Positions 1-64,000 of a stretch of 64,000 bases of DNA are shown in pieces. The stretch covers positions 3,224,001 through 3,288,000 of the forward strand of contig NEEC01000011.1 of assembly GCA_002189035.1 (NCBI GenBank). Reading direction: 5' to 3'. Within the stretch, counting starts at the first letter, position 1, and every line of letters starts with the position of its first letter. A model generated the notes under the pieces. The model saw only the letters and a list, made by a program, of their open reading frames with translations, was not told the origin of the DNA and did not search any database. A program made the translations under genes and the position numbers. Origin of the DNA: Utricularia gibba (lineage: Eukaryota; Streptophyta; Magnoliopsida; Lamiales; Lentibulariaceae).

Positions 1-1185
1 CAAAGCGTAGAAACGGTCTTCTGAAGAAGGCGTATGAGCTCTCAGTTCTTTGTGATGCAGAAGTTGCTTTGATCATCTTCTCCAGAAGGGGAGGCTCTAT
101 GAATTCTCAAGTTCCAAGTAAGATGATGCTGTTTTTTCATTGTTAATCCTTATGCCCTGTCTAAGAGCCATTCAGGACACAGACATGCTTCGAGTTTCAA
201 ATTGCTTGTTTTCACCCACGAACTGTGCATATTCTTACCAGTTCAACTGCCTGTTTACACACATAGGGAGCTAATGCATGATTTTGCTCGTTTCAGTGTG
301 CAGATGCTGATACAAAAGTATTTAGAACACAGGAAAGAACAAGTCACTGGCCCGGAGGCAGAAGAACGCATTGAGGTTTGTCTTAACAACACCATGCGCC
401 ATGGTTTGCATGTCACTGATGTAAATCATATTTTCTTGGTGCAGCAACTGAAGCAAGAGGTCACGGTCTGCCGACAGAAGATCCAGTGGCTGGAGGCATC
501 CCAAAAGTGAGCCAGTTTGAGTCGCATCTGTTTTAGCATGAAAACTAATTCTTCTGGATGAGATATATCAGGAAGCTTTTAGGACAGGAGCTCGGGGCAT
601 GCTCGATGGAGGAGCTGCAGGAAATTGACAATCAGCTAGAGATAAGCCTGAACAAAATAAGATCGAGGAAGGTATGATGGTGTATTTGACACCATGAACA
701 GAATCTGAATTTTTTTGTCTTGACTGAGGATGATGTATAATCAATCACCTAACGCTGTCTGAGAGCTGATATCACAGGCTCAGATGTTCAAAGATCAAAT
801 TTCAAAGCTTCAAGAAAAGGTAATAAAAATATCTCTCCTCACTTCCTGTGCTGGTTTTCTCTCCTCAATCACTAGATTCTCAGATCCTTCTCGGGATCGC
901 AGGAGAAGTTATTGCTACAAGTGAATCAAACACTCAATTTCAGGGTAAATATTTTCGATCTTATTCCATGACAGTTCTAAATCAAAGCACTCACGTACCA
1001 TATCCATGACCAAAGAAACTATCTTTGAGGTATTTCATTGCTGAAGGTTTTACATGAAGCTTTTTTGAACACTACAGCTGCAGTGCGAGTACAAGCATAT
1101 GGAAACAGGAAGCTGCTCCCAAAGCACGCAGCACTCCGAAGTGGTGACTGAGTTGTTCATCGGCCTACCAATAACGAAGAACTAG
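1..1185 (+). CDS. SOC1/AGL42-71-72-class MIKC MADS-box transcription factor, 5' truncated, frame break in exon 1
   Basis: DNA-binding regulator of the TM3/SOC1 clade, which controls flowering time and meristem identity. The window opens inside the MADS domain ([20 protein letters not shown], then IIFS). Exons fit at <1-117, 297-375, 445-506, 572-671, 778-819, 903-944 and 1078-1185; internal lengths of 79, 62, 100, 42 and 42 nt are the usual MIKC pattern. Exon 4 carries the K-box core ([18 protein letters not shown]) and the last exon the SOC1 motif ([11 protein letters not shown]) before TAG at 1183-1185. The frame breaks near 88-94: exon 1 as written reads [11 protein letters not shown] where the family has RG-x-LYEFSSS, and one extra base restores both the motif and the phase-2 junction with exon 2. 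This is probably a sequence error. The C-terminal motif makes the clade fairly certain; which paralogue it is remains unclear. Confidence 0.9.
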
Positions 1186-2080
1186 CAAATGGTGTTGTGT
1201 TGTTTCAGTTAAGGAGTCATTTTGTATGACAATGATGCTTCATCACGCACTTACCATGCAAGTGCTGGGTAACCATCTGCTCCGTCTGGGGCGTATTAGT
1301 ATTCAATGAACTGGACAACATGGGATTAAGAAGAACTTAGCAGATAAATAAACAAGAACAAAAGGTTTCAACCAAACTCCCCAAGATTTGACTTGTCTTT
1401 TGAATCGCCATTCTCTCCGATGAAGAATGGAAAGGCACACATGCTGAGATGCTCTTTCAGCCATAAACCATTCAAGGGAACTCGTAACCAGCTCACGCTC
1501 CTCCGTCCTTCAAAACCCCTAAATCAGTCGCCTCCTTCCGCTCATCAGTGCGCAGACCAACAACGACTACAGAGGCAATACCCATCAACGAATAATGCGT
1601 AAGCATGAAGTCAAGGAGGAAGCTGAATACTTACGATTACATCATTCGCGAGGTCAAAGGAAATCAAGTACCAGTAACGTCTTCCCCTGAAAAAAAGTGG
1701 AGGGAATTCCGCATAGATCGCTTCCCTTCCCTTCCCTTCTTCCGCCACCGAGATTCTTAGGTGGGAACTGACGGGTCGGGTCGGGTCAAGCGAGGAGACG
1801 GTGATGGGTACACAAATCCAGGTTTAAAAAGAACCAGAGGATACTTGAGTGGGGCCCCGTATCATCCAGTACCCGAATCTTTGGAGCCAAAATATACCGG
1901 GGGCGACTATCAAATATGAAACACATTCTGATCCAGCAATGAGCAAGCACCAAGATTCAATTTTTAAAAAGCTTCAGAGATCACTATCAAATATCAATAA
2001 ACAGAACAGAATGGTAGCCCTGAGAAATGCACAAAATTCAAGAGTGTTGTAATGTGGAAGGTTGATGAAATTCTGTTGTG
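1186..2080. other. Intergenic spacer, no supported gene
   Basis: Lies between the 3' end of the MADS-box gene and the 3' end of the golgin-like gene, so it should mainly hold two convergent 3' UTRs. Short open frames near 1393-1602 and 1849-2052 show no domain, no splice support and unremarkable composition. A small repeat of cccttcc and gggtcg motifs is seen near 1725-1790. Confidence 0.6.
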
Positions 2081-3606
2081 TCAGCTCCTACCATCCACAT
2101 CAAAACCTGCTCCTGTCCAACCTGGCTCACCTGGGCCTCTACCTTTAGGAACTGCTCCTAATCCCTTGCTTTTCCCATGATGACTACTTTTCTTCTTAGC
2201 TTTTCCTTCTCCATCGACTGAAGGGTGTTCGTTATGGCCTCTATCTGGGATCCCAGTATTGGCTCCTCTGGCTGCATTTCCTTTGGTTGCTTCTGGTGCA
2301 GTTGGAGCTGAGGAAGAATCTTGACCAACACTAGCTTCTGCAGGTTTCTGACTCGCAATCTGGGTGTGTAATGTACAAATAGCAGCTCATCATGAATCAG
2401 TACTAAGAGGAAAACGTAGCAGGAGAGGGGGGAGGTTCTCATTTGCAACCCTCTAGCACAGTCGGGTTGTTCAGATATTGCAAGTCTAATAAATAGAGAT
2501 GATGAAACTATGAGGTGAAAGGAATTACATTGGGACTGGAAATGGAAGATCTGCTGGGGTTCAAAGCCTCCAGCCGCCGCTTCAGCTCCTCCAGCCTAGA
2601 TAATTGAGAATTGCTGCTTTCCAACACCTGTTCAGAAGTGAAAAGACAAGAACATTGTTTCCATACATCGATCTTTTAAAACGAATTTTATCGGCTCGTG
2701 AAACTAAATATCCACCAGATTGTTTAGATCTTCACACAGCTTCTGCTTAGCAGCCTCCTCATCCTTCACGGCTTTTGCAGCTGCTTCCCATATCTACAGA
2801 TTGGATAATGCCATCATCAAAACGACATAGACATGAAGCGTATTAGAAGAGCCGCTACCTTTTTCGCTTCCTCTTCTTTCAGCTTTGCTACACGGACCCT
2901 CTCGGTGGCTGCTTCAATTTTCTTGCGCATGAGTTCAAGTGCTGATTCAAGGGGAAACATAATCTATCAATTGCGGAACATATTCTGAGAAACCCCACAA
3001 GTAGATTCAAACATTGAAACCACACCAGCTTTCTTTGGGCCAGAGGTAAGCTTCATTTCCATGCTAAGATTTGCTAATTCTCGCTCGACATCACGAATCT
3101 TAGAGTAATTTTCATCAATGTACCTGAAAGGAAACAATCTCATGAAGTTACCACAAGGATCAGGCTGTTTTATCCTCCTAAAAGCTGAATGACGCTAGAA
3201 AAAAAGCAATGAAATATTAGGCCACATATGACTAGAAAGGATGAACTGAAAGAGCATCAAAGCCAAAATGATCCCGAATCTTTAGAAAAACAAAGTAGGA
3301 TACACTGGAAATGAAAGTACACAATTGCGTCAGCTAACGGAAAGTCAACTCACTTCCTCAATTGAAGCTGCTCTTCCTCGATCACCTGAACACAAGTGCA
3401 GGAACAACAAAAAGCAATCAAAACAGAGCAGCATTCATAATGCCGACCTCAATTGAAACACTCAATTCCCGATCACAAGTTTCTGAAGCAGAAAACAAGC
3501 ACACCTTCTCGGTGTAGGCAATGACCGGAGACTCCCGGGCGAGACCGTCGGGCCCGATCTCCGGCAGTAACAACCGACTCGCATTTTGGCTTGCATTTCC
3601 GGCCAT
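2081..3606 (-). CDS. RAB6-interacting golgin-like coiled-coil protein (DUF662 family)
   Basis: Plant protein of the GORAB/DUF662 family, probably a Golgi-associated or cytosolic coiled-coil protein; its molecular role in plants is poorly known. Seven exons read on the minus strand: 3606-3505, 3385-3354, 3123-3026, 2941-2859, 2793-2716, 2627-2529 and 2359-2081, totalling 771 nt (256 residues). The N-terminus MAGNASQNASRLLLPEIGPD is followed by a long charged heptad region (VIEEEQLQLRKYIDENY, then RVRVAKLKEEEAKKVWEAAA) and a basic, Gly-rich tail ending GWTGAGFDVDGRS, which is characteristic of the family. ATG at 3606 is the first in-frame Met. The next gene upstream, OMA1, lies on the same strand 418 bp away. 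Family assignment is good; function is inferred only from the family name. Confidence 0.85.
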
Positions 3607-4024
3607 CAGAATCAAATCCCGGTGATCAGGCTCCCAATTCCGGCAGAGGCAGTAATTTTCACATGCTTATATAATAGATCGGAATCTATTGCCCGGAAAA
3701 GTAATTGGTCCTAAACCCCTGCCCTAATTCTACCCCTAAAGGCGATTTCCTTCTGGGTTTGGTCCGGCCCAACTTGTTTTCATCACAGGGACCTCTCAAA
3801 CAAGTAAAAAGTGCACAGCACAGCACAGTATGAATTTGAATGAAACAGGAACAGGGGATCTGATCTTCGTACAAGCTACAAACAGATAAACGAGTAGGAG
3901 AAGCGCTGTCAGAATCAAGATTCTCGGGCAGATGCCCAGTTTATTCGCAAAGTTGAAAACATGTATCCATGGCTCACTTATGTCAGCGAGCATGGCTGGG
4001 GCATTAGATTTGTGGGGTGGTGCT
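3607..4024. other. Spacer between OMA1 3' end and golgin-like promoter
   Basis: This 418 bp stretch holds the 3' UTR of OMA1 and the promoter and 5' UTR of the golgin-like gene, both on the minus strand. A small repeat, cacagcacagcacag, sits near 3814-3828. No gene is seen. Confidence 0.5.
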
Positions 4025-5811
4025 TTAAAGGAATCCTTCGATCCTGCGGCCAGCCACTGCTTCCCTATAGATGGTGAGGGCCTCCTCCATGACTTTGGCC
4101 TCAGAAAGAGTTTGAGCTCTCTTCTTGCCAGAAGGGTGAGTTGTGAGGTAGTCTTTGAGGGCGGAATCGCCCACGATTTTTCCCAACTTTTCGTATACCT
4201 GGGGAGCCACTCGGGGGTCATAACCTGCTGATGCTAGCAGCAGAATTCCGATGTAATCTGCTTCCATCTCCATCCTGAAAAGATCCACGAAACCAAAGAT
4301 CTAGATGCATCTTTTTCGGGTACTTGAACCACACACATTGGAAAGCAGAAAACAACTCAAGTGATATCAGCAATGGATACAACAGAGAGTCTGATCAAGA
4401 AAAATTGTAAGATAAACAAAATTCCGTGAAGGAAAGCAGGACTTATCAAGCTTCTTAGAGTTCGTCTAAGGGCCACCAGGGAGAGGTACTCCGGATTGCA
4501 GTATTTACATGAGATGATCCAACAAGTTATTTTGGAATACTTTTACGAGCTTATGGACTACCCAGTTCATTCAGAAAGTCTGAGTTATAATGAATCAGGA
4601 TTGGACAGCCCATATCATTCAACGGCACAGACTCAAGATGAAAAATGCTCATAAAATCACCTTCTAGAGAAAGGGAGTCGTAAGAAAAGAGTTGACATTG
4701 TGTTGACAATATCAGGGATGAAAAATTGGTACAGAATCAACTGCAAGATTGTCAGCCAGAGATTCTTAGATATTTGCTCCGCACCGTGCCTGGCAACTGC
4801 ATGACCAACCTGCAAAGGAAACAGCACTGGTTTCTCCATAAGAACCAAGGACAAAATGTAACTCCCTTTCATCTGAAAAGTTACCTCATGTGCAACAACG
4901 GTTGCGATCTCGGCATCCGCTCTAAAATGCTTAAGCAAGCCAGTGAAGACGACAATCTTACCACCGGGTAAACAAAAAGCATTGACCACTGGCTGGTCAA
5001 CCACAATAACCTCCCATTTCAGCCCCTCCAAATGCGCAGTCTCAGACTTCTTACCCTTCTCTTGGCCCACTTTCCTACTCTTCTGAACCCAACTGTCATC
5101 AAGGATCTCGTCATCCTGGTGCCAAGTCTCTTCCTCCCCAATCTTACTACTCAATGTCTTAAAAGTATCTTGGGCTTGGGCCTCATCAAGAGGCAAGCTC
5201 GAAATCTCAGGCGAGTATCGTAAATCGCTCCAAACTTGTTCCTTTGTCAAACCCTTCTGCAAAGCATCAATTATATCCTGTGCTATACTCTGAACCTTTA
5301 TACTATCGGGATGAAGGGGCGGCAAAATCTTCCCTCTGAACTGATTTCTAATTTGCCTAAACTGGCTGTCTCCCATCTCCCTTTCAAGATTCCTAGACAA
5401 AAGTACAAAATGGGTTCTCTTTGTGTAAGGAACAGTTTCTAGATTCCCAAAGTAAACGGAAATCACAACCCCAGCACTCACCAGAACCACAATCAAAGCA
5501 TTTCTTGGATTTTGAATCCACCTCCTGAATCCTCTGGGCCTAAAGTGATGAACCTGGAACCTGTCGACGTAATAATATCTCTTAGCGCCATCAAGAAAAG
5601 GGTTTTGCCGCTTAATTTGCTTCGCCCCATTATGCAACGACGGATTTCTAGCAACGGGGTGACAGATCTTTGACACGATCGAACTGTTAAGGCTATGTTT
5701 CGAAGAAAAAGATTGAAATTCGCGAATTTGGCTTCTGGATGCTACTGCTCTCAAGGCACAGCTGCGAAAAGTGGCCGAAATCAATCGGGCTGATCCTCTA
5801 TACCAACCCAT
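4025..5811 (-). CDS. OMA1: Mitochondrial inner-membrane metalloendopeptidase OMA1 (M48 family)
   Basis: Zinc protease of mitochondrial quality control; in yeast, animals and Arabidopsis it cleaves inner-membrane proteins under stress. Three exons, 5811-4885, 4809-4661 and 4274-4025, sum to 1326 nt (441 residues). The N-terminus is Arg/Ser-rich and suits a mitochondrial presequence. One membrane segment (ALIVVLVSAGVVISVYFG) lies near residue 115. The catalytic HExxH motif spans the first intron: exon 1 ends ATVVAHE and exon 2 begins VGHAVARHG, giving HEVGH. The third zinc ligand lies in exon 3, within MEMEADYIG(I/L). The length fits OMA1. The ATG at 5811 starts a divergent pair with the gene at 6886, across an AT-rich spacer. 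Confidence is high from the motif and overall similarity. Confidence 0.93.
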
Positions 5812-8387: not shown

Positions 8388-8624
8388 CATCAAAGACCCT
8401 ACCTTGCAATGAGATTCAGGGAACCCAAACTTGGGAGATGCTTCCTATTCATTCATGGCGGATCCTGCAATTTATGTATGGTTTTACACTGAGCAACGAT
8501 GTATGGATGAACAATTGGAGTTATGTAGTGTCCAAGTACCGATGGAACAGAAACAAGTCAACAGGGCATCATCGGAGAAGGTAAAAAGTGAGGCTCCAAT
8601 AGCAGATAAACAGCATACACACAC

Positions 8625-12475: not shown

Positions 12476-15176
12476 CAGCAGACATCGACCAACTCAACAT
12501 CAAACACCAGCCAAGAGTTTGGAGGTATCGCTGGGCCACAACCTTTTGCCCCATACCTGCAGAAGCCATTTATTCATGGAACATCAAATCTCTGGTTTAA
12601 CCAACTTCGAAGACAATTCGAAAAAGGAAACCAGCAAACAAAGAGACAGCACAAGCGGCTTCATACCCCATAGCTGGAGGAATTGTGAGTCTGCGCTTGT
12701 CACCAGTTCGCATTCCTGTTCAAGTGAAGTGGGAATGAAGGTCAACTGTGAAGCACTAAAAAAGGCCAGAACAATTTGCATTTAAGAGAAAAGTGCGGAG
12801 AGAGTTACCATTAACACCTACATCCCAGCCCTTGATAACTTGCCCAATACCTTCACCAGTGAAAACATTTTATGAGTGGGAGGAATATATAGCTGAAATT
12901 GACCCACGAATTATGTAAACTTTGCTTGCCTAATCGGAATTTGAAGGGTGCTTTTCCAATGTTGGAATCAAAAATTTTTCCAGTCTTCTTCAGCTTCCCA
13001 ATGTAATGGACGCTCACCTATAAAGCAGAACATGGAACAGGCATGATTTACTAAATACGTTTAGAGAAGATGGAGAAACATCAACTCCAGAGATGTTTCA
13101 CGGCAATATGGAGAGTCTTACCTTTTTCCCAGGGGAAGCTCTTTTTCCATCTGGTTTTCCCATTTTCAACTCTTCCACTACCAAACCATTTGGAAATGAT
13201 CTCACTTGGAATGGTTCGGATTCTTTGGATCCTGTCTCGTCAGTTAACTTTTCATCCGACTTGGGTGTCATGGAGGCTTCTTGCTGGTCATTCTTATTCT
13301 TCTTTTTTTTGTTCTTCTTCCTGAAAAAGTTACAATAATAAGTCAGTCGACCCCGGTCACGAGCTATCTAGCAATTGCCATGGCTACAACCTTAAAAAGA
13401 GGCGAGAGTGATAAAAAAGGGTTCATGCTAAAATTCAGCAAGATATATCGAATGCAGACAATGCAAAACTTACTTCTCCAGTGATGTTTTTGTCTGGCTT
13501 ACGGATGCATCCACAGGGGACTCTTCTTTTCTGCAAGAATTTAGCTTTTCATCTACAGGAACTTCTTCCTTATCCATCGACTTATTCTTCTTCTTTTTAT
13601 TTTTTTCAGAATTCACCGAAGGTTCACATGTAGTGCTTTCCCTGTTAGGTAGAAGAAAAGAGTTTGATGTTTCAATCAACTGAAATCATGCTACATGGGC
13701 AATATCAACATGTATCTGGGGAGTTTAAAAGCAGAAGATCCAACAATAGCTCTAAAATGAGTGGAATTTAACTATTAAATTGGAAAATTACCAACCTTGC
13801 ACGTTTCCTATCTTGAACAGCATCACTGGTCCTTCTTTTCAAGCTTGCTTCACAAGGTACATCATCTTTTTTATCCTCCAGTTTATCACTAACTGCCTTC
13901 AGGCCAGGTTTTGAAGAGCTGATTTTATTTCCAACGGAGGACAAGGGGAATCCGTCTTCATCTTCACTTTCAGAGAGGGCAACTGCAGTTCCAGTGTTGA
14001 CAACAATTTGTTTGCTCTTCTCATTATTTCCAGTTGCTGTCGACTTGTCTGACCTCTTATTTGAATCGTCAGGCATTGCAGGTTCACTAGGTTTTTCATC
14101 ATCAACAATTTCTTCAATGGTGACTGCCATTCAAGTACATGGTTACAGACAACTCTTCGACCTTATCAAATCACAGAGCTCAATAAATTGCACAATATCA
14201 TTATTAAAACAAAGCCATCTTGGTCAAGATCTAGTGAGAAAAAAAAAAAACAGATGCTGCTTGGATCCGCTCGAGAAATGCATGCTGAAATATAGATTTA
14301 CCACCTACTTTCACATAGTAATACCTCCAGAATTGGGAGCCGAAGAAGGGTGCATGCCAATGTCATCACTGAACTCATAATCGTCTTCCGATCCAAACTC
14401 TAATGGATCATCATCGCTGTCAGATTCAGTCACCATAATGTCCTCTTCATATGCATCACTTCGACAAGACAAAAGGGTTAAAGAAATACAAATATGCAAA
14501 CTGGAAAAGTAATAAGAAATTCAAAATATACCACTAAATCACCAATAGATGCAGATTTTGTTGATACAAAACAAATAACAGGTTAGATGATATCATGATA
14601 GCGAAGGATACGAGCCATAATCATCTCCCTGGTAACCCTGATCCTCCTCATCACCATAAAAGAAGCCAGATAAATGCACACTACGAGGGCCAACGACTGA
14701 GAAGGTGACTTCATCTTCCTCTTCAAACTCAAGGTTCAAGGCGCACGTCTCGAGCTTTTCAGGCAACAATGAACACAAGTAAATAGGCTTCTTATTTCCA
14801 ACTTTACACTGCACGATGCTCCTCTCAGTCGAAAATCCAGGACCTAATGTTGCCTAAAGAGCAATACACGCGAAATTAGACGGACGCGTTAAAATGGCAT
14901 CGATCGCCTCCGTAACACTGAATACACTGATAAATATCAAGAAACTATTGAAGTTTCCCTCTCCAATACGTACCTGAGAAACATGAAGCCTCCCTCTGTC
15001 ATCATCCGGCCGATGAACATATGGTTTCTTGGACTTCAACTCAACTCCTGTTTTCAAGACAAGTCGTAAGGGGCAAAAGGAAGAACGCCCATTAACACAC
15101 GAATCACAAAATTGGTTGACTACAGTAGAGAAACACAGAACACGTAGGAAGACCGGTGTTTACCCCAGAAGGCCAT
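12476..15176 (-). CDS. FKBP53: Nuclear FK506-binding peptidyl-prolyl isomerase, FKBP43/FKBP53 type
   Basis: Immunophilin acting as a histone chaperone in the nucleus. The first exon is only 13 nt (15176-15164, MAFWG), followed by 15047-14974, 14853-14612, 14458-14325, 14123-13796, 13641-13474, one near 13325-13125, and four FKBP-domain exons ending at 12476. The N-terminus ([20 protein letters not shown]) and the beta-rich part with [17 protein letters not shown] are the nucleoplasmin-like module. A long acidic and Lys-rich linker follows ([16 protein letters not shown]), including basic nuclear-localisation stretches. The C-terminus is a complete FKBP domain: [19 protein letters not shown], then [20 protein letters not shown], then [16 protein letters not shown] and TGA. 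The isomerase pocket residues look present. I cannot separate FKBP43 from FKBP53. Confidence 0.92.
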
Positions 15177-18590: not shown

Positions 18591-18599
18591 GTAATGGGG

Positions 18600-23019: not shown

Positions 23020-25642
23020 TTACCTTTGCAGGTGGCGCAATGCACCGCAGTAGAGTGCATTGTCGGGTACAGGATTCACAGTCTTGTTGCTGGTATCCTC
23101 GGGGTTAACTATTCTCATGTAGGTTTCCTGGCCAAGATACCACCTGTCGAGATTTTCGCTCCTGAGATTCCAGACGCCCACGTTGTCTAGGGAAACATAC
23201 ACTGCAGTCCACCCTCCCACAAAGACCTGGGAAGAGATGGCCATTGAGATCAATGAACAAAACTGAACGAACCTCAATCAATCTTACCTGCACTGTGGAA
23301 CGGGATATTGCATCCCATCTGTTGTAAGAGCCTCTGCAGTTTTCATTCCATTCACCATATCCCATCCTGTAAGCAGACAATGTCAATCACCACTCTATGA
23401 TCAGATATACCGCAAGGTTATAATACTTGCGAAGCACATACCCAACCACAAAGAATGAATAACCATCAAGATGGAACGACTGAACAACAGTGTCATTGTT
23501 CTGCAGCACTATTTCTATGAACCCCTTGTATGTAGCATTGAAGATGGATACGTCCCTAGCAGGTGGCCGACCCAGAGGGTCAGTCGGGAAGTCCAGCTTG
23601 TAGGCACCCTTGACGTTGTATGCATCAGCAAGATTTATTGGGGTATCAGGGTTTACAAATGAAATTCCGTTATATGCAGCTCGTGACACCCCTCCAATCA
23701 ACATCGGAGATTGAATTCTGAGAAAATAAGCATCTGAGACATTGATGGATCCATAATGAAATGAACCTTGTGGATTGGGACGAGCCCCGCTTGCAGAACC
23801 ATTTTGCCTGATCCATGTTTCCTAAATGAGAACACATTATTGGACATGAAACAAATAAGGATCACGGATCCAGGTACCTGATGGATATGGCTTGATTCAG
23901 TGAATAAGATGTGTCATAGACATCATTCGGAGAGGGGGAAGTGGGCCGGATGCCGGTCCCTTGGAGTTGGAGTAATGCAGAACGGCAACACCAGTCACAC
24001 TCTGCCAAAGGGATTCGTTGACAAATCTCGCACTTGCTACAACGTAGTAGTCACTGGTTGCATTCTGGTCTGTGAAGAGAAGGAAGGAGTATGACTGGCC
24101 AACATGGATGTCCAAGCTACTGTAATTCTGCATTGTAGTGTAGTAGCCCTCTGTTTCTACCAAAAGCAAATTATGGTTCTGAATTCGAAAGTTCAAGCAA
24201 GTTGAAGTTCCCACATTATGCACTCTAAGACGATACGTTTTTCCTGCCAGGAGAAAGTACAGACCATAGTTTGCTAAGCTGAGCAATAACGAAGGCAGCA
24301 GTTGAAACTTTCAAAAACTTACCAGGATCCACGCTAAATGATTCATATTCAATGCCATATGGAACTAGAGTGGTGTTGTATCTATACGGGCCTTTTCCAT
24401 TAATCAGAACACCATCCGGCATGCCCAACTGGCTTCCATTGTCAAGTGCAGCCCTCAGGGCCTGATATCATAATGGAGGAGGCAAAATGATGCAGAGAGA
24501 TAGAAGAATGCATACAATTATAACAGATGAAATAGACTGCATCACCACCTACCGTATGATTACGAATATACCAGTCGCCAATAATTATAACTATTTCCCC
24601 GTCAGGGGTAGCAAAAGGAACCGGAATGATTTCTCGGTTCATGATAACAAAGGGGCCAAAACCACCAGAAGCTCTCTGCAGGTTCAATGACGGGAAGTAG
24701 AAGAAGCTACCAATCTGATCCTTAACCTGAAACTGATAGGTCCAGTTCCATCTTGGGGGTATTGGGCAGTTCGTTCCAAGAAGACCGTCCTGCCATGAGG
24801 AACGGCGGATTTGAATGCCAGGCCTAAGAAACAGAGCAATCATCTTCTCAGAGAAGTAGAAAGAGAGGAATATTATATTGCTCATAATCCACTAGTTTTT
24901 CCCACCATGTTACGAGTAGATTCTCGTTTAGCTTATTCTTGACATTCACCACAACGTTGTTATTGGTTGTGACATTAATAACAGGACCCGGGAACTTCTT
25001 GTTAACAGCAATAACCTACAAGCAGCAATCTGTAAGTATGAATTCGTAGCAAACGATCCAAATGATAAACCCACTGAATGAAATATCTAAAGCAGAAATG
25101 AAGAACAAAACAGTATCCATGTTCAATGGCCAACTAAGACAGAGACCAAATCATGTTGTAAACACATAGCACGGGAATATATTTCCAGGGCCACCCTTTA
25201 TGCAACAGTGAGTCCATCGTGGTCCTAACAAATAGCGAATCAGACAAGGTCCCCTTCTTATTCATCACTGTTGGGAATGAAACTGAGAGAAACCACTAAA
25301 TACATGGCATGAAAAGTTGTCAACTTTCTTCTCCGAGAATAAAAGCATAAAGTAAGAATCGCAGTAATCTAGACTGAAAAGCACCAGGAAGCAAGGTAGC
25401 TTTCCATTACATTTACGGAGAAAGTTGAACGAATGAGAACCCACTAAAAACTTAAACCAAGAATCGAAATTTGGACAAGCACGAAAAAAAAAAGAATGTG
25501 GCCATAATCGTTTGACCTGTTGAGGAACTCCAAGCGGAGAAACAATAGCGTAGGAGAACTCCAAGTCGAAGTACACAAACGGGTCGGCAGCAAAAGTAAC
25601 GCCGATCACCAAAGCAATGCAGATCCAGAACGAACACCCCAT
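23020..25642 (-). CDS. SKS2: SKU5-similar multicopper-oxidase-like protein, one frame break
   Basis: Secreted cupredoxin protein of the SKU5/SKS family, which affects directional growth and cell-wall integrity. Eight exons: 25642-25517, 25015-24906, 24823-24553, 24461-24323, 24243-23878, 23807-23442, 23366-23288 and 23226-23020. A signal peptide (WICIALVIGVTFAADP) is followed by three cupredoxin domains, with VTTNNNVVVNVKNKLNENLL, RRSSWQDGLLGTNCPIPP and ETWIRQ-type motifs. The usual oxidase HWHG site is replaced by TWPGIQ, as in other SKS proteins, so it is probably not an active oxidase. It ends CGALRHLQR with no GPI signal. In exon 5 a run of five C (forward G, 23934-23938) leaves the frame one base short: reading switches from GPLPP to a stop, while the expected SPNDVYDTSYSLNQAIS lies in the next frame. 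The missing base also explains the total of 1664 nt. Confidence 0.92.
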
Positions 25643-27369: not shown

Positions 27370-29723
27370 TCATCGACTCGGGGACACGTCCTCGCCGGCC
27401 TGATCCCACGTCAAAGTGTAGTCTTGAATTTCGGCCGATTTCATCTTCCAGATCTTCGCCGCCGCCCGCACTCCGGCTCGCGTCGCGTTGTTGAAAAGGA
27501 AGATGCCCAGGGGGCCATCTGCCGCTTCCGTCGGATAAACTCGGGAGGTGATCACTCTTCTTCCCCCCTGAGCAAAGCTCTCCACGATGGAATGGTCCAC
27601 CTACGCCGCAAACCCTTCAGATCTCTAACACAATTAGATCAATCTCAACACAGAGTCAACCTACCAGTGATCGAATGCTCATCTTCTCCCCTTTCAGCAC
27701 CGGGACGCTGCTCCCGTACACCACGTTATTCACGTCGGAAGAAGCCTTGGATGACCTGACAGAAGCAGCCATAGTTGTGAGCAGAGTTAAGCAAGCTTTT
27801 CAGAGTTGCGCCACTGAAATGCACACCTCAACTCGTCGGCGCAGAAATGGTACTCGATGCGGCCATCCGGCTGCTTGGCGATGTAGAAGTAGATGGGCGT
27901 TAACTCCGACAGGTGTCTGGAGGCGAGCACCACAATCCCAAAGGGCCCCAACGCTCCTCTACTGGCTGCGCCGCCGCTAGCCGGGCAGTTGTATCCGGAA
28001 GCATCTTCCGCATCCACCGCTTCAATCGATGGTTCCACCATTTCGAAAGACACCTCTATATCCAACTGCAGAAACCAGTTTCATTACGTTACAAGAGTTG
28101 CTTCTTGGCACCCTGCACCAAAACTGTCTTCTATTCCAAAAAGTATTTAATGAACCTGCGATGCGGCGGAGCCGACATGGAGAGGCACCATGGAACCAGG
28201 TTCAAGCATCACATTCGTGAATTCAAAAAGCTCCCCTCTCAACTTCTCCACCTCCTCCACTGGCCATTGTAGGAGATTTGTCCCTGTTTTTTGATCAAAC
28301 TGGACGGTTCTTGGTATGGACTGCATCCAGAGAACAGATACACAATGCGTCAGCTGGGTAGTGTTCACAAGCGTACAGAAATCAGTTTTTCATGTTACCT
28401 GAACAGAAGCCCAGCCCTTGATGATATCAACACTTTCAGCATCGGTTTCTCTGATCCAACCCACAAAATCCTCCTGTTTTTGTTCTGATCGTAAAACGTC
28501 TTGGAAGCATAGTACTCACCGTAGTCGTATCTCAGACCAATCCCCGCGTCGGAAGCCGGGTCGTCCGGCGTCCACCGGTTCGCTGCCGCATCGTATGTCC
28601 CCAAGGCATAGTAATCGTGCTTATCATCATCCAAGCTCACCTTCAACACATGTTTGACCCCAGGCCCGTTTGCCGATGTATCCAATCCGTGGTGGGAATC
28701 AACAAGAACGGGTAGAAATCGATGCACTCCCACATACCCGTACCCGGAACCGCGTGCAAGTATCCATCCAGAAGCTCGTACTCCACGAAATCGGAGGTCT
28801 CGTAAACGAGGGCTATCCCCGTCTTGTTGATCTTAGACCCGATCGTGATCCGCCACTTTTCACCGCCAGGCGCGAGCCACGCCGTGGTGGGATCCCTAAA
28901 GTCCTTTTTCCCGATCCCGGGCGGAGGGGTGAGGACGGGATTCGCGGGGTGCTTCACCCACTGGAGGAGAAGCGGGTCGGAGAGGTTAGCCGGGATAGCA
29001 AGACATTGGACCTGAACGACGTCGTGGGTGTCGCCGGTGTAGAGCATTACGATTCGCCCGTCGGGGAGGATGGTGGCAGATCCCGTCCATACGCCATTGA
29101 CATCGTAGGAGTGGTCGGGAACCATAGCGTAGGGAAGATGGAGCCAGTGGATGAGATCCCTTGAGACGGCGTGGCCCCAGGTGATATTGCCCCACACGGC
29201 GGCGTCCTGATTGTACTGGTAGAACAGGTGATACCATCCCTTGTGATACAACGGACCTAACAATGAGACAGAATTCGAATTCAAATCAAAGCACCCGGAT
29301 AAAGAGGATTGAGACATGTTGACTGGAACTTACCATTAGGATCTGACGCCGGGAATGGAAATGCCGAGAAAGAAGCAAAAAAAGAGGGTTAGCGAAACTC
29401 ATCCCAGACAGATATTCCTAAGAAATACTTTCCAATTACCAACCATTCATCCAATTCTTGTGGGGCTGAAAGTGGAATGCCGTCCTTTGCCAATTCAGGA
29501 TCTGATTGCTCCACCCGAAGGAGGCCGAATCTCGCCGCAGGAAGACCTTCTCCGACACTCCCTGCGCCGGCCCTCTGGACTCCGGTCGGTTCGAATCGAA
29601 TTCCAGAATAACGGTGAGCAATAGGAAGGATGCCAGCAAAATGCAGATCAGGAACCTTCTCTTCCGGGGCGCCGCCGTGTGAGCGTAGTGAGCTTCCAGG
29701 TCATCTGCCAGAGCGCCGCCCAT
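27370..29723 (-). CDS. Vacuolar-type acid invertase (beta-fructofuranosidase, GH32), two frame breaks
   Basis: Hydrolyses sucrose to glucose and fructose in the vacuole. Seven exons: 29723-29444, 29342-29334, 29256-28399, 28320-28156, 28065-27827, 27755-27665 and 27600-27370. Exon 2 is the classic 9 nt mini-exon that supplies DPN of the WMNDPNG catalytic motif. The N-terminus has a basic tail and one membrane segment ([17 protein letters not shown]), as in vacuolar forms. FRDPTTAW and WECIDFYPV follow; the hydrophobic residue before DFYPV, rather than Pro, is the vacuolar-type signature. Exon 3 lacks two bases: near 28710-28712 (FYPV reads FYPF and then shifts) and near 28460-28462 (RRILWGWIRE reads RRILWVGSE). 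After both, the expected protein continues. Adding two bases makes all phases agree. Either assembly errors or a recent pseudogene. Confidence 0.9.
29334..29342 (-). other. Invertase 9 nt mini-exon
   Basis: The nine bases ATCCTAATG (minus strand) are flanked by CAG and GTAAG. Joined to G before and GT after, they encode Asp-Pro-Asn, the heart of the catalytic DPNG motif. This is one of the smallest known plant exons and is conserved in plant invertase genes. Confidence 0.92.
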
Positions 29724-38540: not shown

Positions 38541-41500
38541 TCAGTATTCGCCTGCTGTTTTACAGGGCTGTGGAGGGGGGTTCCCCTTCCGGTTGGGCTT
38601 GGCTTCGAGCAGCATGGACACGACGTCCCGCATGGAGGGGCGATCGGCCGGATTCCGGCTCGTGCAGAGCAATGCGACCCTAAGGACCAACGTCATTTCC
38701 TCTCTAACGGATGCGAGTGATGCACCGGCATTGGGGTCGAGGACATCGGCGACTCCGTTTCCGGTCTTCACTTTGCACCTAACCCAATCAACTATACCGT
38801 TCCCCTCGCCGAACTCCGCCTCCATCGGTCGTTTCCCGGTCAGAAGCTCCAGCAACACCACGCCGTAGCTGTAGATGTCGCTCCTCTCGTCGACTTGCAG
38901 TGAGCATGCGTACTCTGTTTGATACACTTTCAGGCAGTTAGCTATCGACAGTACGTGAACAATGGAAAAGAGAAAAGCACAAACCTGGGGCGATGTAGCC
39001 GCAGGATCCGGCGATGATGGACATTGATTCATGGCTCTGGAACAGCTTGGCGACTCCGAAGTCCGCTACACGCGCCTCCATGTCGCCGTCGAGGAGGATG
39101 TTACTCGGCTTCAGATCCCGGTGGACGATCGGCGGATCGCAATCGTGGTGAAGGTAGCAAATCCCCTGCGCCACCCCTAGCGCGATTTTGTATCGGGTGA
39201 CCCAATCCGCCGCCGTATCCCCGGCCTTGCTCTTGCCGTGCAACACGTTATCGAGGCTGCCGTTGGGCATGTATTCGTATAGCAGCATGGTGCACTGGTT
39301 GTTGCTGCAGCAGCCCAATAATCTGACAATGTTCCTGTGGCGAACGTTGCCGAGGACTTCGACTTCAGCGAGGACGCCGCGTCGCCATCGGAGAGCGCCG
39401 TCCGTTTGCTTGCCCCAAAGCTTCTTAATGGCGATGATTTCGCCGTTTGGCATCTCCGCCCTGTAGATGGATCCCGTCGCCCCCATTCCAATGATCTCAT
39501 CGCTGATTGCGAGGCTCTCGAGAACGTCATCTGCCGTGAAGTTCAACCTCTGAAATGCCGTCAGTTTCCATGGCCCCTCGAAGTCCGATAACCGGCGCCC
39601 GCACGTGGCATGGAAGAAAACGCTGCCGGCTGTCAGAATGAAGACAACAATTCCGAGAGATGCGGCCAGTATCCAGAGGATAACCCCTGCCGCCTTCTTG
39701 GAGTGACGCCGGATCCCCCCCGGCTCACCCGCCAATCCATCCTTTTCACAGGGCCTATTGAGAACTTCGCCGCAGAGGCCGTCGTTTCCGGCGAACGACG
39801 ACGGATTGAGAGCGGAGAACACGGGCTCAGAGGAGGGGACAGGGCCTGTTAACCGGTTGTACGAAACGTTGAAAATCTCCAGAGTAGTGCAGTTGTTGAA
39901 ATTGGAAGGGATGGTCCCCGTCAAGAGATTGTGGGACAAATCGACATCCGTAATCGACGGAAGTAGAGAAATTTCCCATGGAATTATCCCCGTCAGAGAA
40001 TTCCTGCAAAGATTCAGGCTGATGAGTTTTTCACAGTGGCCGATGTCCCATGGGATTGAGCCTGTCATATTGTTTCCGGTAAGCACAATCTTGTAAAGGT
40101 TTCTGCACCCGATAAAGTCCGGGATTTTTCCGGTAAGAAACGAGTAGCTCGCAGAGAATATCTGCAAGTTTGGAGCTTTCCATATACCTTCCGGTAGCTC
40201 AGAGTTGAAGAAATTCTCAGAAATATTTAACAACTCAAGGTTCGGTGCCTCTCCAATTTCCCTGGGAATCGGACCGGAGAACTTGTTCTTGCTTAGCTCC
40301 AGATAAGTCAAGTTCGGCAAAGACACAAACCCTCCCGGAATCGAGCCGTTGAGGCTGTTGTTGTGAATCCTGACCCGGTTTAAGGCTGTGCAGTTGGTTA
40401 ATGAAGAAGGGATCCCACCGGAAAATCCGTTGGAGAAGAGTATAAGCCGCGTCAGTTTTTGGCCGAGGCAAATATCCGGCGGAATTGGACCGGAAAGGGA
40501 ATTGGAAGAGACGTCCAGCCGCAGAAGCTTCCCATTTGAGCCTAATTTAGGGGGCAGCGTCCCGGACAGGGAATTGTTCCACAGAGAGAGATATTCCAAA
40601 TTGGGAAGCTCACCAATCGCTTCTGGAATTTCACCGGTGAGCTTATTGTTCATCAGTAATAACGTATTCAAGTTCTTCCATCCAGAAACGCCCGCCGGAA
40701 TGTCGCCGGAAAGACTGTTATCCGACAAGTCGAGAATTTGTAACGATACCATTTGAACCCAATTCCCCGGAATCCTACCCGTGAAGTTGTTATTAAAGAG
40801 CAACAAAGTCTCCAGCTTCGCCAATCCTCCAAGCTCCGCCGGAAGACTGCCCGATAAATTTGCATTGGATACATCCAGGTAAACCAAGTTTGCTAACTTG
40901 GAAAACTCAACAGGGAGACCATTGGAGTAAGAGTTGTAGCCAATCTCCATGTGTTGAAGCTGGTACAAGAGTCCCAACTCCGCCGGAATCTGGCCTGAGA
41001 GTGAATTCCCATGCAAATACATCGACTTCAGCTTCGGAAAAACACCAAAACTCGCCGGAATTTCTCCCTCAAAATTATTCCCCCCGAGATTGAGATACTC
41101 GAGATGCTCGAGTGAAACGAATTCTCCCGGCAAAGGGCCGGCGAGATTGTTGCTATAAGCATTGAAAAACTCCAGGTACGTGAGGTTGGAGATCCCCGGA
41201 GAGAAGCTGGAGTTGAAGAAATTGTGATTGATATCCAAAGTCCTGAGACTCCGTAGCTCGAAAATCTCAGGTTGCAGAGCTCCATCAAACGCATTCCGGC
41301 TCAAATTCAAATGCATCAAATCTTCTAAATAACGGATTTCAGGCGGTAGCCTGCCGGAGAGGTTCCGCCCCGACAAATCCAACTTCACAACCCGTTGCGA
41401 ACCCGGGTGGCATTCAACCCCAGACCAGGAGCACCACACCGGAGGACGCCCAGCCCCATACCCCGAATCAACCCAATCAATGAAAGAAGCTTGAGGGTCA

Positions 41501-41618
41501 GTGAGTGAGGACTTGATCGTAAGAAGAGACTGCAGCTCCGGCGGGGCACAGAAGCGGCTGATGAGAAGAGGAAGATCAGCAGCAGGGAAGATGAGAAGAA
41601 GGGCTTCATGGTTTTCAT
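38541..41618 (-). CDS. PXY: PXY/TDR-class LRR receptor kinase (LRR subfamily XI), one frame break
   Basis: Receptor kinase of the clade that perceives TDIF/CLE41 peptide and controls vascular cambium. Two exons, 41618-38985 and 38914-38541, would give about 1002 residues. The signal peptide (SSSLLLIFLFSSAASVP) begins at ATG 41618 but in a different frame from the LRR cap (ELQSLLTIKSSLTDPQASF); one missing C in the run at 41543-41546 explains this and fixes the total length. About 22 LRRs follow, with the PXY-like KAPNLQIFSASYS and GSIPWDIGHCEKLISLNLC, then a membrane segment (GVILWILAASLGIVVFILTA) and an apparently active kinase (IAIKKLWGK, HRDLKPSN, DFGVAK, APEY). Similarity to PXY looks strongest, but the Arabidopsis neighbour order would predict its relative MOL1 (At5g51350). 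Confidence 0.9.
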
Positions 41619-42082
41619 CTTGGGGAGGTGGGACAGCAGCAGGAGTGGAGGTTTTTAAGAGAGGTGCAGGCCGGTATGCTTTTTTGGAGTGCATTTGGCG
41701 CAGGGAATGTTTCGTGTTTCATCATCACTGTCTGGGATTCTGTTCCTGGACAGAAAGAACACAGCCCTGGGGATTCGCCTTAAAATCAACCTCACCTCAC
41801 CTCAGCTCACCCCACTGCACTTCACTTCACTCCACTTCACTGTGGGTAACACCCCTGCAGCTGCAGTTTGTGGGTTAGTCTGGTACAGGCAGCATACAGA
41901 CGAATAGTTAAAACATTCCCAGATGAAAGGTCACCTTCCTACAAAGATGGTCCAGACATACTAGCTTTTCCCCTCCGCATACAACTGGATTCGGAAAGCT
42001 CTAGTTGATAAGGGAGATTTTATAATGATATTATGAGCTCATGTGCAGTTATTGTCATCTGGAACCGGATGGGGTTCATCAC
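41619..42082. other. PXY-like promoter / 5' UTR region
   Basis: Upstream of the PXY-like start. It contains a pyrimidine-rich run of CTCACCTCACCTCA and CACTTCACTTCACTCC words at about 41788-41842, which reads as GA-rich on the gene strand. No gene seen. Confidence 0.5.
41788..41842. repeat. Short degenerate CTCAC/CACTT microsatellite
   Basis: About 55 bp of imperfect 5-bp tandem words (CTCAC then CACTT). On the transcribed strand of the PXY-like gene it becomes a GAGTG/AAGTG-rich element in the probable 5' UTR or core promoter. Confidence 0.7.
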
Positions 42083-54354: not shown

Positions 54355-54705
54355 CCTTCATGTTTTTCTGTCATGATCATGGGACGTAAAAGCACAGACT
54401 AGGTAGAAATGAACAATAATCTCTTAACAGATGAGCAGCAGTACAGATAGAGAGAGAACTGCTCATTAGATTTTTGGCCTGTTCAGATGAAGCTCTATTC
54501 ATGATGGTTGGTTTCCATGAAACAAACTTCATGAAAATTGTAAGCTTTTGTTTCGTCGAATAATAATTCATCCTTGGCACTAGAATGTGCACTCCCACAT
54601 TAAAATTGTGACCCAACAAGCCCTCTCTTTTTTCTTCTTCTTGCTTTGTTCAGTGAGTCCTTACCAGTGATTTTCGAAGGTGGGTTGGACTGTATCAGTC
54701 ACTTC
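54355..54705. other. Convergent 3' spacer
   Basis: Holds the 3' UTRs of the U-box kinase (plus) and the pseudokinase (minus). Nothing else seen. Confidence 0.5.
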
Positions 54706-57451: not shown

Positions 57452-57737
57452 ATGGAAGTTACTGCTCTGGGTCCTGCCTCTCTGGTGCTCTTTCCGATTC
57501 GTAGCAATCCACGAGTCGCTGCACCAGCCAAATCGCCTGCTGATACGCTTGTTCGCGCCCATCGTATTGGCCAGTCGATTAGAAGAAGAAGACCGTTGAT
57601 CCCGCGCCAAAACTGGGCCGCCGGAGTTCGAGCATCCGCCGGGGGTGTGAACGGTGACTTAGTTATTGATGATTTCGCCGTCGAGGATGTTCCGCATTTG
57701 ACGGACTACCTTCCTCATTTGCAGGTTCGCTTTTTTT

Positions 57738-57775
<38 letters not shown>

Positions 57776-60480
57776 CTTTCCGAATATTGATCTCCTCTCC
57801 TCTCCGCTGTTATTGCTACTTTTCCTGCCTTCAGTGTTACCCGAATCCGTTGGAGAAGTCTCAAGCATATGCTATAGTCAAGTAAGCCCAGCTTTCACTC
57901 ATCGTCTTCAAGACACTGCGTGTGCATGATGAGGCTTTTGTTTTTCTTTTTGAGATCATAGGAGAACGTTTGTGAGCCCTGACGAAGTGGTGGCACAGCA
58001 GGTTTAGTGTTTTTTATTGTATGTGTACACTAATTAGATGTATGCTCTGAAAGTTTGCATTTTGGATTCAGGTGGTTGTTCAGAAGGGCAGTCCTAGAGG
58101 AGTACATTTCCGGCGAGCAGGGCCACGTGAAAAAGTAAGCTTGTTCTCCCTTTTTACAGCTATGGGATGTGGCTGTTTTCCCGGCTTGTCGCATACTCCA
58201 GGTTTTCAAGATTCCATCTTTTTCTTCTTCCAGGTATATTTTACTCCAGAAGAAGTTCGAGCATGTATCGTGACATGTGGGGGTTTATGCCCTGGCATCA
58301 ATACAGTTATTCGTGAAATAGTATGTGGCTTGAAGAACATGTATAGAGTAGATGATATTCTTGGAATTCAGGTGAGAAAGAGAATTCAAATATTTTTTTT
58401 ATAGAAAAAGCATTTCTTTTTCATATTAGATTCCTTGTGCATTACCTTGAGAATCATGGCTCTGATTTACTATGTAACAGTACTTTTAGTCCTTCCATTG
58501 TTTTTGTGAAAACAGGGGGGCAATTTTTTTTTTTTTTTTGGTGGACTTGGTTTTAACAGATTCATGGTTCTGCACTTCCCGGTGAAACTGATACCCTGAT
58601 TCATTTTTACTTCAGGGAGGATATCGAGGATTTTATTCTAAAAACACCATTCAACTTACTCCAAAATCTGTTAACAACATTCACAAACATGGTGGAACAT
58701 TCTTACTAACCTCAAGAGGAGGCCATGATACGAATAAAATAGTTGACAATATCCAAGATCGAGGAATAAACCAGGTGAGGTCATTTTTTCCTCTGAGATC
58801 TTGCTGCACATTCAGACAAGGGCAATGTGATGACAGTTCTTAATTTTCAGGTTTACATAATTGGTGGAGATGGTACTCAAAAGGGAGCAGCTGCAATTTC
58901 CAAGGTCGGCCATCAACATGTTCCTGCCCTCTTGTTCACTCCTGAATCTAATGTCTTTTAGGGGTGCTTGATACTTACAGGAAGTTGAAAGGCGTGGCCT
59001 CAAGGTGGTGGTAGCTGGAATTCCAAAAACCATTGACAATGATATTGCTGTAAGTTGCAGTTGTAAGGTCTCCCAGAATATGTTATGGTGTCAACATTCT
59101 TCTGTCCCTGTGACCTTCCCTTCCCTGTTTTGTATGAAATATGCAGTGAGACTGCATTTTGATTCTGTGGAAACCAAATGTGCAGGTCATAGACAAATCC
59201 TTTGGCTTTGATACTGCAGTAGAGGAAGCTCAGCGAGCTATTAACGCCGCACACGTCGAAGTCGAAAGCGTAGAGAATGGAATTGGAATTGTGAAGCTAA
59301 TGGGACGCTACAGTGGTAAAGTGGCTGAACATTCTTCACATCAGCTCTCTTTTCTGAGTCCAGTCCTTGACACTGCTTGATGTCTGTCTTCAGGATTCAT
59401 CGCAATGCACGCAACTTTCGCCAGTCGGGACGTGGTAAGAATCCCTGATGTTAATGCTGCTTCCCTTGCAGAGATTCATTACATGTTATGGCTATGGACA
59501 GGATTGCTGCCTGATTCCAGAGTCACCATTCTATCTGGAAGGCCCTGGTGGGCTCTTCGAATTTGTTGAGCAGAGGGTAAAAGAGAACGGGCATATGGTT
59601 ATTGTGTTGGCTGAAGGAGCTGCACAGGAGCATGTTGCTCAGGACTTTCGTGCATCTGCTGCAAAAGACGCATCTGGGAATCAGCTGCTTCTGGATTCTG
59701 GGCTTTGGTTAACAGAGAAGATTAAGGTACATGGAAAGCCAACCTCTCAGTTAAGCAGCATTTCTTTATCAAATAGCATCATGCTACCAAACTTCAGAAC
59801 AGATTAAATTCACTTTCTTCTATGTTCCAGGATTACTTCTCAAGCGACCGGAAGATGGCCGTGAACATAAAATATATAGGTATCATCAGTGCTCCATACT
59901 TTTCATCAGATCCAGGGGACCTGTTCTCTGTTGAGGCATCTGATCACACAGTTTTTATCTGCTGTCGTTGTGGCTGAGCCCATCTGATCATTATTCATCA
60001 AAACCCCTTCTCATTTACTGTCTGTAGGATGTCAAGTTTTGGAATGTTGATCAGTATGGCTGTTGTGCTGTGCAGATCCTACTTACATGATTCGGGCGGT
60101 TCCCAGCAACGCATCAGACAACTTCTACTGCGCACTCCTTGCCCAGAATGCCATCCACGGGGCCATGGCAGGATACACAGGTTTTACTGTTGGCCCAGTG
60201 AACAGCAGACATGCTTACATTCCCATACGAGTAAGGCTCTCTATCCTATTGTAAAGCAAGCGTTCGGCACTGGATCATCACAAGTGGATTGGTGCCTTGT
60301 TTTTTTACCTGTCAGCGAGTAACGGAGGCACATAGAGTGGTGAAGTTGACAGACAGGGTGTGGGCTCGGCTCCTGGAATCCACAAACCAGCCCACCTTCC
60401 TCGGCTCTGAGGCTGGACAGGATAAGCTGCTGCTACATGTGCCAAGCCATGAGGAAGCAATAGGATCAAAAGCAAAGTGA
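57452..60480 (+). CDS. ATP-dependent 6-phosphofructokinase, plastid type (PFK4/PFK5-like)
   Basis: Phosphorylates fructose 6-phosphate in glycolysis; the plastid isoform group is likely. About 14 exons, beginning 57452-57724, 57835-57881, 57962-58001, 58072-58134, 58234-58371 and 58616-58774, and ending near 60317-60480. The N-terminus ([20 protein letters not shown]) and the Arg-rich region after it suit a transit peptide. Conserved parts follow: [44 protein letters not shown] (the Gly marks ATP rather than PPi use), [10 protein letters not shown] with catalytic Asp, [43 protein letters not shown] and [15 protein letters not shown]. Introns are short. A 27-30 base A-tract lies in the first intron (about 57742-57771). 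It is divergent from the pseudokinase and convergent with RABD2. Confidence 0.94.
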
Positions 60481-60799
60481 TCATTCTTGGGTTGCATCTG
60501 AACTTGTGTTGTTTTGGTATAGATAGTGCAGAACTACTAGGCTCTCCGGTTCTATATGCGTGGGTTGGTCAAAGCTGCAGCATGGGACAACGTAATACGA
60601 AGAATAACCCAGATTTCAATATCAAGACAGAACACATATTTCACAACTGGGAGATTCTCCTGGATAAGCAAGTTACCATGCAAGCACACCCAGTATGAAA
60701 GGAGCTTGTCTGGTCAACCAGATGTAGAATCCAAAGAATAGAAGACTACATACGCTGAGACATCATAGGGATGTAGTGCCAACACACAATCGTGGCATT
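60481..60799. other. Convergent 3' spacer between PFK and RABD2
   Basis: 319 bp holding two 3' UTRs; no gene. Confidence 0.5.
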
Positions 60800-62428
60800 T
60801 TAAGAGCAGCAGCTGCTCTTTTGGGCAACGGGTTGCCCACGGATTTGCACCATTGGTGGCCTTGCGGCATTTGACTGGGGCTGGCTGGCCATCCTGCAGG
60901 TAGGTGTAAACTAGGTGTGAGCACATGGAATGAAGGGCCACAATTACACGTACCATAGGGATTTCAGGGAACTGACACAAGAAACAGTTACCTGTTCTTG
61001 ATGTCGGCAGACATTGCCATGAAAGCCTGTTCCACATTGAAGGCATTTTTGGCACTAGTTTCCATGAAGGGAATACCAATTTCATCTGCAAAAGCCTTCA
61101 AATACAATGGAACGGACGGTCATGATTTTCCACTTGGAAAAATACGCTTATAAAACAAGGGATTACGGATCGTTACCTTTGCGGTTTCATATGGAACGGC
61201 TCTATTCTCGGCGAGGTCAGACTTGTTCCCTACGAGAAGCTTGTTCACATTATCACTGGCATATCGACTGATTTCACTCAGCCACTGTTTCACATTGTTG
61301 AAGCTCTCTTGGTCCGTTATATCATACACTATCTGCAGAAAAAAACGCCCAAGGCGTAAATTAAAGATATACATTGAATAAAGATACCAAATAAAATAAG
61401 AAATAAGTCTAACAATTATTCCATGTGCTCCACGGTAGTAGCTACTTGTTATTGTCCTGAATCGTTCCTGACCAGCAGTATCCCACTGCGAGTAAAATTA
61501 CAAAAAAAAAGGTATACAATGCTTGCCCCGTTGATAGATATAAATGCATCCAGTATGTTCTGGTAAAAACCAGAACATGAAATAAGACAGTCTTACAATC
61601 TGAAGCTTAATAGTCTTGCCATCCTGCTCCACGGTTCTGATTTTCTGAGAACGGAAATAGAGTGATAACCGTGATTCAATTGAAGTACATACAGAAAAAA
61701 ATAGTGCCTTACAAAATCAACTCCAATGGTGCTGATGTAACTGTCAATATATGAATCATCCTGTGTAAATATAGCCAAAAAATCAGGAAATCACTTTCAC
61801 ACAAAGGCAACGCTAAACCGAACCGAAATTCCAGCTTACAGCAAATCTCAGGAGGAGACATGATTTACCAACACCAGAATCTCCGATTAAAAGAAGCTTG
61901 AACAAGTAGTCACTGAACCTCCCCCCAAAAAAACACAACATACATTCTATAGGGTTAGTAACAGGAAGAAAAAAACGACATCTGGGATAATGCTTGGTTA
62001 CAAAATTATGCGAACTAGTGACTCCACCGTGTAATACTAACCCCCATCCCCCATGGAATACATACATACACGCTAAAATCCTACCAACAGTCTAACACGG
62101 GACCACGGCAAACTCAGAGGTCGATTTACATTAATTACAATTTCCACAAATCAAAGATCTTAAAACCACGGGAATAAAGTAAAATTCTCTTCTTCGCGAA
62201 TTGTGTACCAAAAGCCCTAATTCACCTACAGACCAAAATTCCTGATCACGGACGGACATCATCACGAAACCAACGCAAAAATCAAGCACGACCTCAAAAA
62301 ATCTGGCAACAAAATCAATAAGAAAGAAAAAGAAACTGATCCGCGCACAAGGAGATAATAAATGGCAAAGCTTATGAATCCCTCGGAACTTCCGAAAGAG
62401 AGAGGGAAATTTACTATTCAGAACCCAT
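60800..62428 (-). CDS. RABD2: Rab1-class small GTPase, RABD2
   Basis: GTPase controlling ER-to-Golgi vesicle traffic. Eight exons total 609 nt (202 residues): 62428-62415, 61912-61840, 61760-61713, 61644-61597, 61485-61414, 61332-61177, 61095-60992 and 60893-60800. The first exon is only 14 nt (MGSEY). All G motifs are present: [12 protein letters not shown] (P-loop), STIGVDF (switch I), [11 protein letters not shown] (switch II), GNKSDL and ETSAK. The C-terminus is [11 protein letters not shown] then TAA, with two cysteines for geranylgeranylation. The start differs from the usual Rab1 MNPEYDYLF only in the first residues. It is convergent with PFK; 784 bp separate its start from the next gene. 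Confidence 0.95.
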
Positions 62429-63212
62429 GACTGGCGAAATGAATCAACGTTTCCGTCGGCCGGCGGGAGTCACTGGCGAGAGGCGACCTGCGACGGAGCT
62501 GCTATCGTCTTGACCGCGTTATCGGGGAATACGAAGCCTGCCTGGCGCGTCGTGCAAGTCTAAACTAATGTTGCGTCAGTTGCGTCATATTTATAAGAAG
62601 GAAAAGCAGCAAGAAGCCCCCCTCCGCTTTACACGAATTGTACACGGAACCCCATTTACTAATTTCTTATTCATTATTACTAAAATTATTCAAAATCAAA
62701 ATTTAAATTCCTAAAAAATCATGTATAATACTATTTAATTAAATTTTCTTACAAAAATGAATAATTAACTTAGGAATAGAAGGGAAACTTCAGTGCAGAA
62801 AATGGGAGAAATGTTTGCGTGGGGGGAGGAAACACTCCACAGGAGTGTTTTTCTTTGGTGCAATGATGACTGCACCTACACTACCTGCACATTGGGAAGT
62901 TTTGCCGCAGCAATCGGCTGAAGAAGGAAAAAGCATCCTCTGGGGTGATAGTCTCTGAGGTTCACAGACTTTACTGCGGTGCCAATTCCTTTAACTTCAC
63001 CATTGCAAACAACAAACGTTTTCATCAAGGAAATATATCCGAAAAGGTTTGAAGTTAGCAGCGATGAAAGACCCGTCTCTTGCGGTTGAATGAAAAAGAC
63101 ACAGTAGAAGGGAACCAAGGCCTACGCTGGGAGAAACACACATGTGAATCAGGGGTAAATTGGCGTGTTCCATCATCATCTCTCACAAAGCGGGGAAGAT
63201 TTTTTCACCCCC
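62429..63212. other. RABD2 promoter and PABN 3' UTR
   Basis: The right part (about 62790-63212) should be the 3' UTR of PABN and the left part the RABD2 promoter; 62630-62780 is AT-rich. Short frames on the minus strand here are not supported as coding. Confidence 0.5.
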
Positions 63213-64000
63213 CTAATATGGCCTGTAGCGCATGAAGGGGCGCCTAAACCTTGGAAACCTCCTGCAAGAGGGGGAGTTTACATGTTAGGCACAGAACCAA
63301 ACTGGAGCAGCTTCTCTTGGTAAATACATAGTTCCAATAGAACACAAATAGAAAAAAGTATGGATTTGGATACAATGGTAGGATAGCGCACTCATGCGGT
63401 TTACTAGGTAGGCAGGCCAGTTTTTTGACAAACAAATTACAAGAAAGATATCTCTCGTGCTCACCCATAACCATATGGTGGATAAAATGGTGATGGCATG
63501 AAGGCCCTCCTCGGTCCAAAGTAAGGATTTGGACGCCTCCCTCTGAACTGCTTCATTCCAGGAACGTTCGTTCTTTTGGCAGACACCTGAAAAATTAGGA
63601 GACGTAAGGCTGGTTTTTGGAGAGATGAGCGTTTCAATGATCAGACCATGGCCTGCCACTGCAAACCTTTAGTTGGCGGCCATGCAACTCTGACTCATTC
63701 AATAGCAGAGCATTTTGGACAGCCTCCACCTCTACAAATTCAACATAAGCAAATCCCTTGGGCTGAAAGTATTTGTCGGTCAGGATGGTGACCCTGTTCA
63801 CGGTCCCACACGACTGAAAATGTTGCTGCACTTCCTCAGGTGTGCATGCATAGTCTACCTGAGAGTGAAGAGAAAACATGTTATCCAGGAAAATATGTTC
63901 GAGGTATCAGTGGTCTCGCAAATGATTTTTTTCGGAAGCAGGAAGAGTCAGCATTCAAGCTTAACATTATCTATGCACATTACATGGCTAATTCCACCCC
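63213..64000 (-). CDS. PABN1: Nuclear polyadenylate-binding protein PABN (PABPN1-like), 5' part outside window
   Basis: RNA-binding protein that stimulates poly(A) tail synthesis in the nucleus. Three exons are visible: 63858-63667, 63586-63465 and 63261-63213; the first RRM strand (VYVGN) and the N-terminal coiled coil lie beyond position 64000. Exon 1 here carries most of the [23 protein letters not shown], then [20 protein letters not shown] (RNP1 is KGFAYVEF) and ELHGRQLKV. The next exon has the Arg-rich tail start [20 protein letters not shown], then FYPPYGYG, and the last exon ends [11 protein letters not shown] then TAG. Sequence 63859-64000 is intron. I recall Arabidopsis PABN1 as At5g51120, which fits the block order. 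Confidence 0.94.

Follow-up and report, generated by a model that had tools for sequence, protein, structure and literature searches.

Single-base deletions at short G/C runs in conserved genes probably reflect consensus errors of a long-read plant genome assembly

We analysed a 64,000-nucleotide stretch of a plant genome (100.09 Mb in 516 contigs), here called the window and corresponding to contig C255:3224001-3288000. Five frame breaks in four of its genes are very probably assembly artefacts, and the genes themselves, judged from their sequences, would be intact and under purifying selection. An earlier note on this DNA had proposed homopolymer consensus errors rather than five pseudogenes. 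This proposal is supported by the recurrence of such breaks elsewhere in the assembly, the bias toward losses of one base, the dependence on run length and the absence of decay past the breaks. We regard it as a strong inference and not as direct proof. By its size and contig number, the assembly appears to be the PacBio HGAP assembly of Utricularia gibba (88x, contig N50 3.4 Mb; PMC5793159).

Frame breaks in the window

A homoeologous region, 69-89% identical to the window, lies on contig C1 at 7.51-7.57 Mb and served as the internal reference for most genes with a break. Four sites (MADS-box, SKU5-like and both invertase sites) were compared with the duplicated copy on C1. The five breaks are as follows:

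82-83, forward strand: MADS-box gene, exon 1; CC against CCC in the homoeolog, with a -1 shift of the frame
23934-23938, reverse strand: SKU5-similar multicopper oxidase; C5 on the coding strand (G5 on the forward strand), with one base too few for the frame
28710-28712, reverse strand: acid invertase (GH32), break 1; CCC on the coding strand; the run or its neighbour has lost one base
28460-28462, reverse strand: acid invertase, break 2; GGG on the coding strand, one base missing
41543-41546, reverse strand: PXY/TDR-like receptor kinase; C4 on the coding strand where the signal-peptide frame gives way to the LRR frame, with a base probably lost

Each of the four sites checked against C1 lacks a single base at a short run of G or C, directly after which the conserved protein continues. 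These sites lie inside conserved exons, and their flanks are near-identical to the homoeolog. Of the five single-base deletions at G/C runs that the earlier note had described in four genes, the C1 alignment thus bears out four, while the one in the PXY/TDR-like gene is probable and the position of the one in the MADS-box gene had to be corrected. In the latter gene, the window reads TTCT-CCAGAAGG where the homoeolog reads TTCTCCCAGAAGG, and the start codon and upstream frame are present. The alignment is 89% identical with a single gap, so that the -1 shift stands, but the lost base belongs to the CC at 82-83, a few bases away from positions 88-94, where it had been placed.

The deletion in the SKU5-like gene was found where it had been reported: the homoeolog on C1 and a third copy, located on C213, are both intact there and read through in frame. 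In a frameshift-aware protein alignment, the window copy showed 91% aligned identity with one -1 shift, and the Cu-oxidase profiles sit in adjoining open reading frames (ORFs). For the invertase, both proposed sites agree with the C1 alignment and with the protein alignment, in which the homoeolog protein aligns over 287 amino acids with exactly two -1 shifts. The first shift falls at DFYPV (87% identity, frameshift-aware), and the Pfam GH32N profile is split over two frames at this site, with 14-196 in one ORF and 196-266 in the next. At the second site, the window has TTTTGTGGG and the C1 homoeolog TTTTGTGGGG. In SKU5 and at the first invertase site, a missing neighbour of the run fits equally well as a missing run base. 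The C1 invertase homoeolog carries a -1 of its own at a G5 run near C1:7534957, so that neither invertase copy appears intact in the assembly.

For the PXY/TDR-like gene (window 38541-41718), no homoeolog was found by DNA search, and it appears to be single-copy, unlike its neighbours. The frames point to a break at the claimed site: MKTMKPFFSSSLLLIFLFSSAASV is read in one frame and PPELQSLL..., the start of the solved TDR ectodomain, in the next, and the break falls exactly on the signal-peptide/ectodomain boundary. The ectodomain is intact and matches the solved TDR structure 5gij with an E value of 1e-220. The deletion itself is probable, since an in-frame upstream ATG (MHSKK...) gives the LRR frame 926 open codons without any deletion.

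The larger ORFs of the window were also scanned with Pfam profiles, and the result covers the ORFs with Pfam hits. Among the other genes with hits (M48 peptidase, DUF7796, PC-esterase, LRR kinase, Phi_1, two kinases and Ras GTPase), no frame break lacked an intron explanation, and an intron accounted for each inspected case of a domain split between ORFs. The statement that the other genes of the window are unbroken therefore holds for most of the other recognisable genes, as covered by Pfam hits.

The HSP70 family as a control

As a control we chose the HSP70 family (18 loci), since these proteins are essential and closely resemble one another. Breaks were located in this family on C451, C496, C1, C255 and C304. 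Two of the five cytosolic HSP70s that are 92-98% identical to the copy on C98 are broken, each by a single -1, at GGG and CCC. Further -1 shifts occur in an HSP70-like gene on C304 (at G5), an HSP70 on C255:2.81 Mb (two), a tandem HSP70 pair on C1:2.26 Mb (one in one gene, two in the other), and on C451:0.18 Mb and C1:7.41 Mb, and a weak one was seen on C213 at the end of an alignment. The frame-break effect is thus not special to the window. A +1/-1 pair in an HSP70 on C255 turned out to be read-through of an intron and was removed from the counts.

The G5 deletion of the HSP70-like gene is common to contigs C304 and C241 and could be either systematic or real. Around a tandem pair of HSP70-like genes, C241:11334-19294 duplicates part of C304:2234766-2246278 (99.5-99.7%), perhaps as an unmerged haplotype or an overlap. 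We considered using the two contigs as a replicate assembly of one stretch, but the few differences they show suggest copies that have diverged and not run-length noise, which rules out this use.

Base, sign and length of the affected runs

The counts rest on about 43.4 kb of coding DNA, made up of 28 kb from the 18 HSP70-family loci and 15 kb from genes of the window and its homoeolog. This sample, drawn from a single gene family and a single syntenic block, is non-random, and the coding intervals of its window part were set by hand. It holds 17 single-base breaks, including the five of the window, of which one is weak (C213) and one probable (PXY); in this sample, conserved coding DNA carries about one break per 2.6 kb. 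All 17 are -1 and none is +1 (binomial p 1.5e-5 against equal insertions and deletions). The breaks are confined to G/C runs, with 17 breaks among 834 G/C runs of at least 3 bases versus none among 1,229 A/T runs (Fisher p 2e-7), and 13 among 170 versus none among 346 for runs of at least 4 (p 8e-7).

By inferred true run length, 4, 8, 1 and 4 breaks fall on runs of 3, 4, 5 and 6 bases, equivalent to rates of about 0.6%, 5%, 8% and 44%. These lengths take the missing base as a run base and are approximate, as a neighbouring base is possible at several sites; the SKU5 run length was corrected by hand from the sequence in the counts for lengths 5 and 6.

Coding constraint around the breaks

Before as well as after the breaks, homoeologs or close paralogs differ mostly at third codon positions. 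For the HSP70 on C451, the differences at codon positions 1, 2 and 3 number 19, 6 and 204 before the break and 3, 0 and 61 after it. The corresponding counts are 1, 0 and 9 after the second invertase break, and 3, 1 and 4 after the SKU5 break, where the stretch is too short to be informative. Frameshift-aware alignments revealed no in-frame stops accompanying the breaks. Relaxed constraint past the lesion, extra stops and mixed lesion types, all signs of pseudogenes, were absent; the only lesions were -1 shifts at G/C runs.

Real pseudogenes predict mixed lesions and stops, and a likely relic within the homoeologous region serves as a contrast. An exon that we named FKBP-like by eye from its sequence is open in the window (14604-14893), whereas its homoeolog (C1:7517936-7518225) has two in-frame stops by substitution, without a frameshift. 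We consider this homoeolog a candidate for a genuine pseudogene.

Discussion

The pattern is best explained by a long-read consensus that calls G/C runs one base short, with a probability that climbs steeply with run length. The cause would then lie in the sequencing or consensus step, presumably PacBio with HGAP, uncorrected by short reads. The rise of the break rate with run length, the exclusive occurrence of deletions and the presence of breaks in essential genes elsewhere, irrespective of function, are what such errors predict. One point against this explanation is that the HSP70 genes are duplicated, and reads from duplicates may be corrected less well (compare Rh2a/Rh2b, PMC5964635).

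Could the four genes instead be recent pseudogenes, broken by real frameshift mutations after a whole-genome duplication? Most of them are duplicated, so that their loss could be tolerable, DNA slippage favours homopolymers, and the FKBP-like relic lies nearby. However, slippage would strike A/T runs too, yet none of the 346 A/T runs of at least 4 bases is broken, and there are neither insertions nor stops. Such mutations would also leave both invertase copies dead and would have to affect the essential HSP70s at a similar rate, while purifying selection continues past the breaks. We therefore find real pseudogenes very improbable. An alternative start or frame in place of a deletion concerns the PXY/TDR-like gene, in which the upstream ATG and its open frame would allow it; we consider this unlikely, though less so than the pseudogenes. 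The N-terminus from the upstream ATG does not resemble a signal peptide; a typical one is read in the other frame and ends where the ectodomain starts, which makes a deletion likely. The other four sites, being inside conserved exons with near-identical homoeolog flanks, speak against wrong gene models.

The maintained coding constraint would also fit breaks that are real in the DNA and corrected during expression by programmed frameshifting or RNA editing. But we saw no common signal besides the run itself, the sites differ between homoeologs and paralogs, and the correction would be needed in a large fraction of all genes, which makes this reading hardly credible. We give equally little credence to runs that are truly shorter in the plant, where a strong recent contraction bias at G/C runs would have broken many genes that are rescued in expression. 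If true, a large share of the genes in this lineage would be broken and yet rescued.

Errors of the kind favoured here have precedents. For azuki bean, the PacBio assembly not yet corrected with short reads was reported to contain 38,889 deletions versus 8,611 insertions, mostly at homopolymers longer than 3; all 91 indel sites tested by Sanger sequencing were assembly errors, and the uncorrected indels would break more than 1,000 genes (PMC4663752). The present assembly resembles azuki bean Assembly_3 (PacBio RS II, Quiver), as described there, in its homopolymer indels, the large excess of deletions over insertions and the many broken frames. It differs in that breaks occur at G/C runs only, in the coding DNA surveyed, and are apparently denser, although the azuki figures in the part available are whole-genome values not split by base. 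Apparent frameshifts in intact genes are likewise known from Quiver-polished PacBio assemblies of Plasmodium (PMC5964635), but there mainly at homopolymers longer than 14 bp, TA repeats and near-identical duplicates. In the literature, we found no published statement of a restriction to G/C runs or of such a high density.

Since the breaks are very probably consensus errors, the affected genes should not be called pseudogenes. At the density seen, many gene models of the assembly would be fragmented, cut short or taken for pseudogenes. Work on gene loss in this small-genome plant that builds on the assembly needs to check G/C runs beforehand, and short-read polishing is the routine remedy.

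The published truncation of UgDCL3 (PMC8333044) was considered as a product of such an error. A truncated DCL3-like gene on C213:2754001-2764000 agrees with the truncation: its RNase III exons are present, and no recognisable helicase exons were seen in about 5.6 kb upstream when the forward frames were read by eye. On this reading by eye, a G/C-run error does not explain the truncation, and hence not every published claim is affected.
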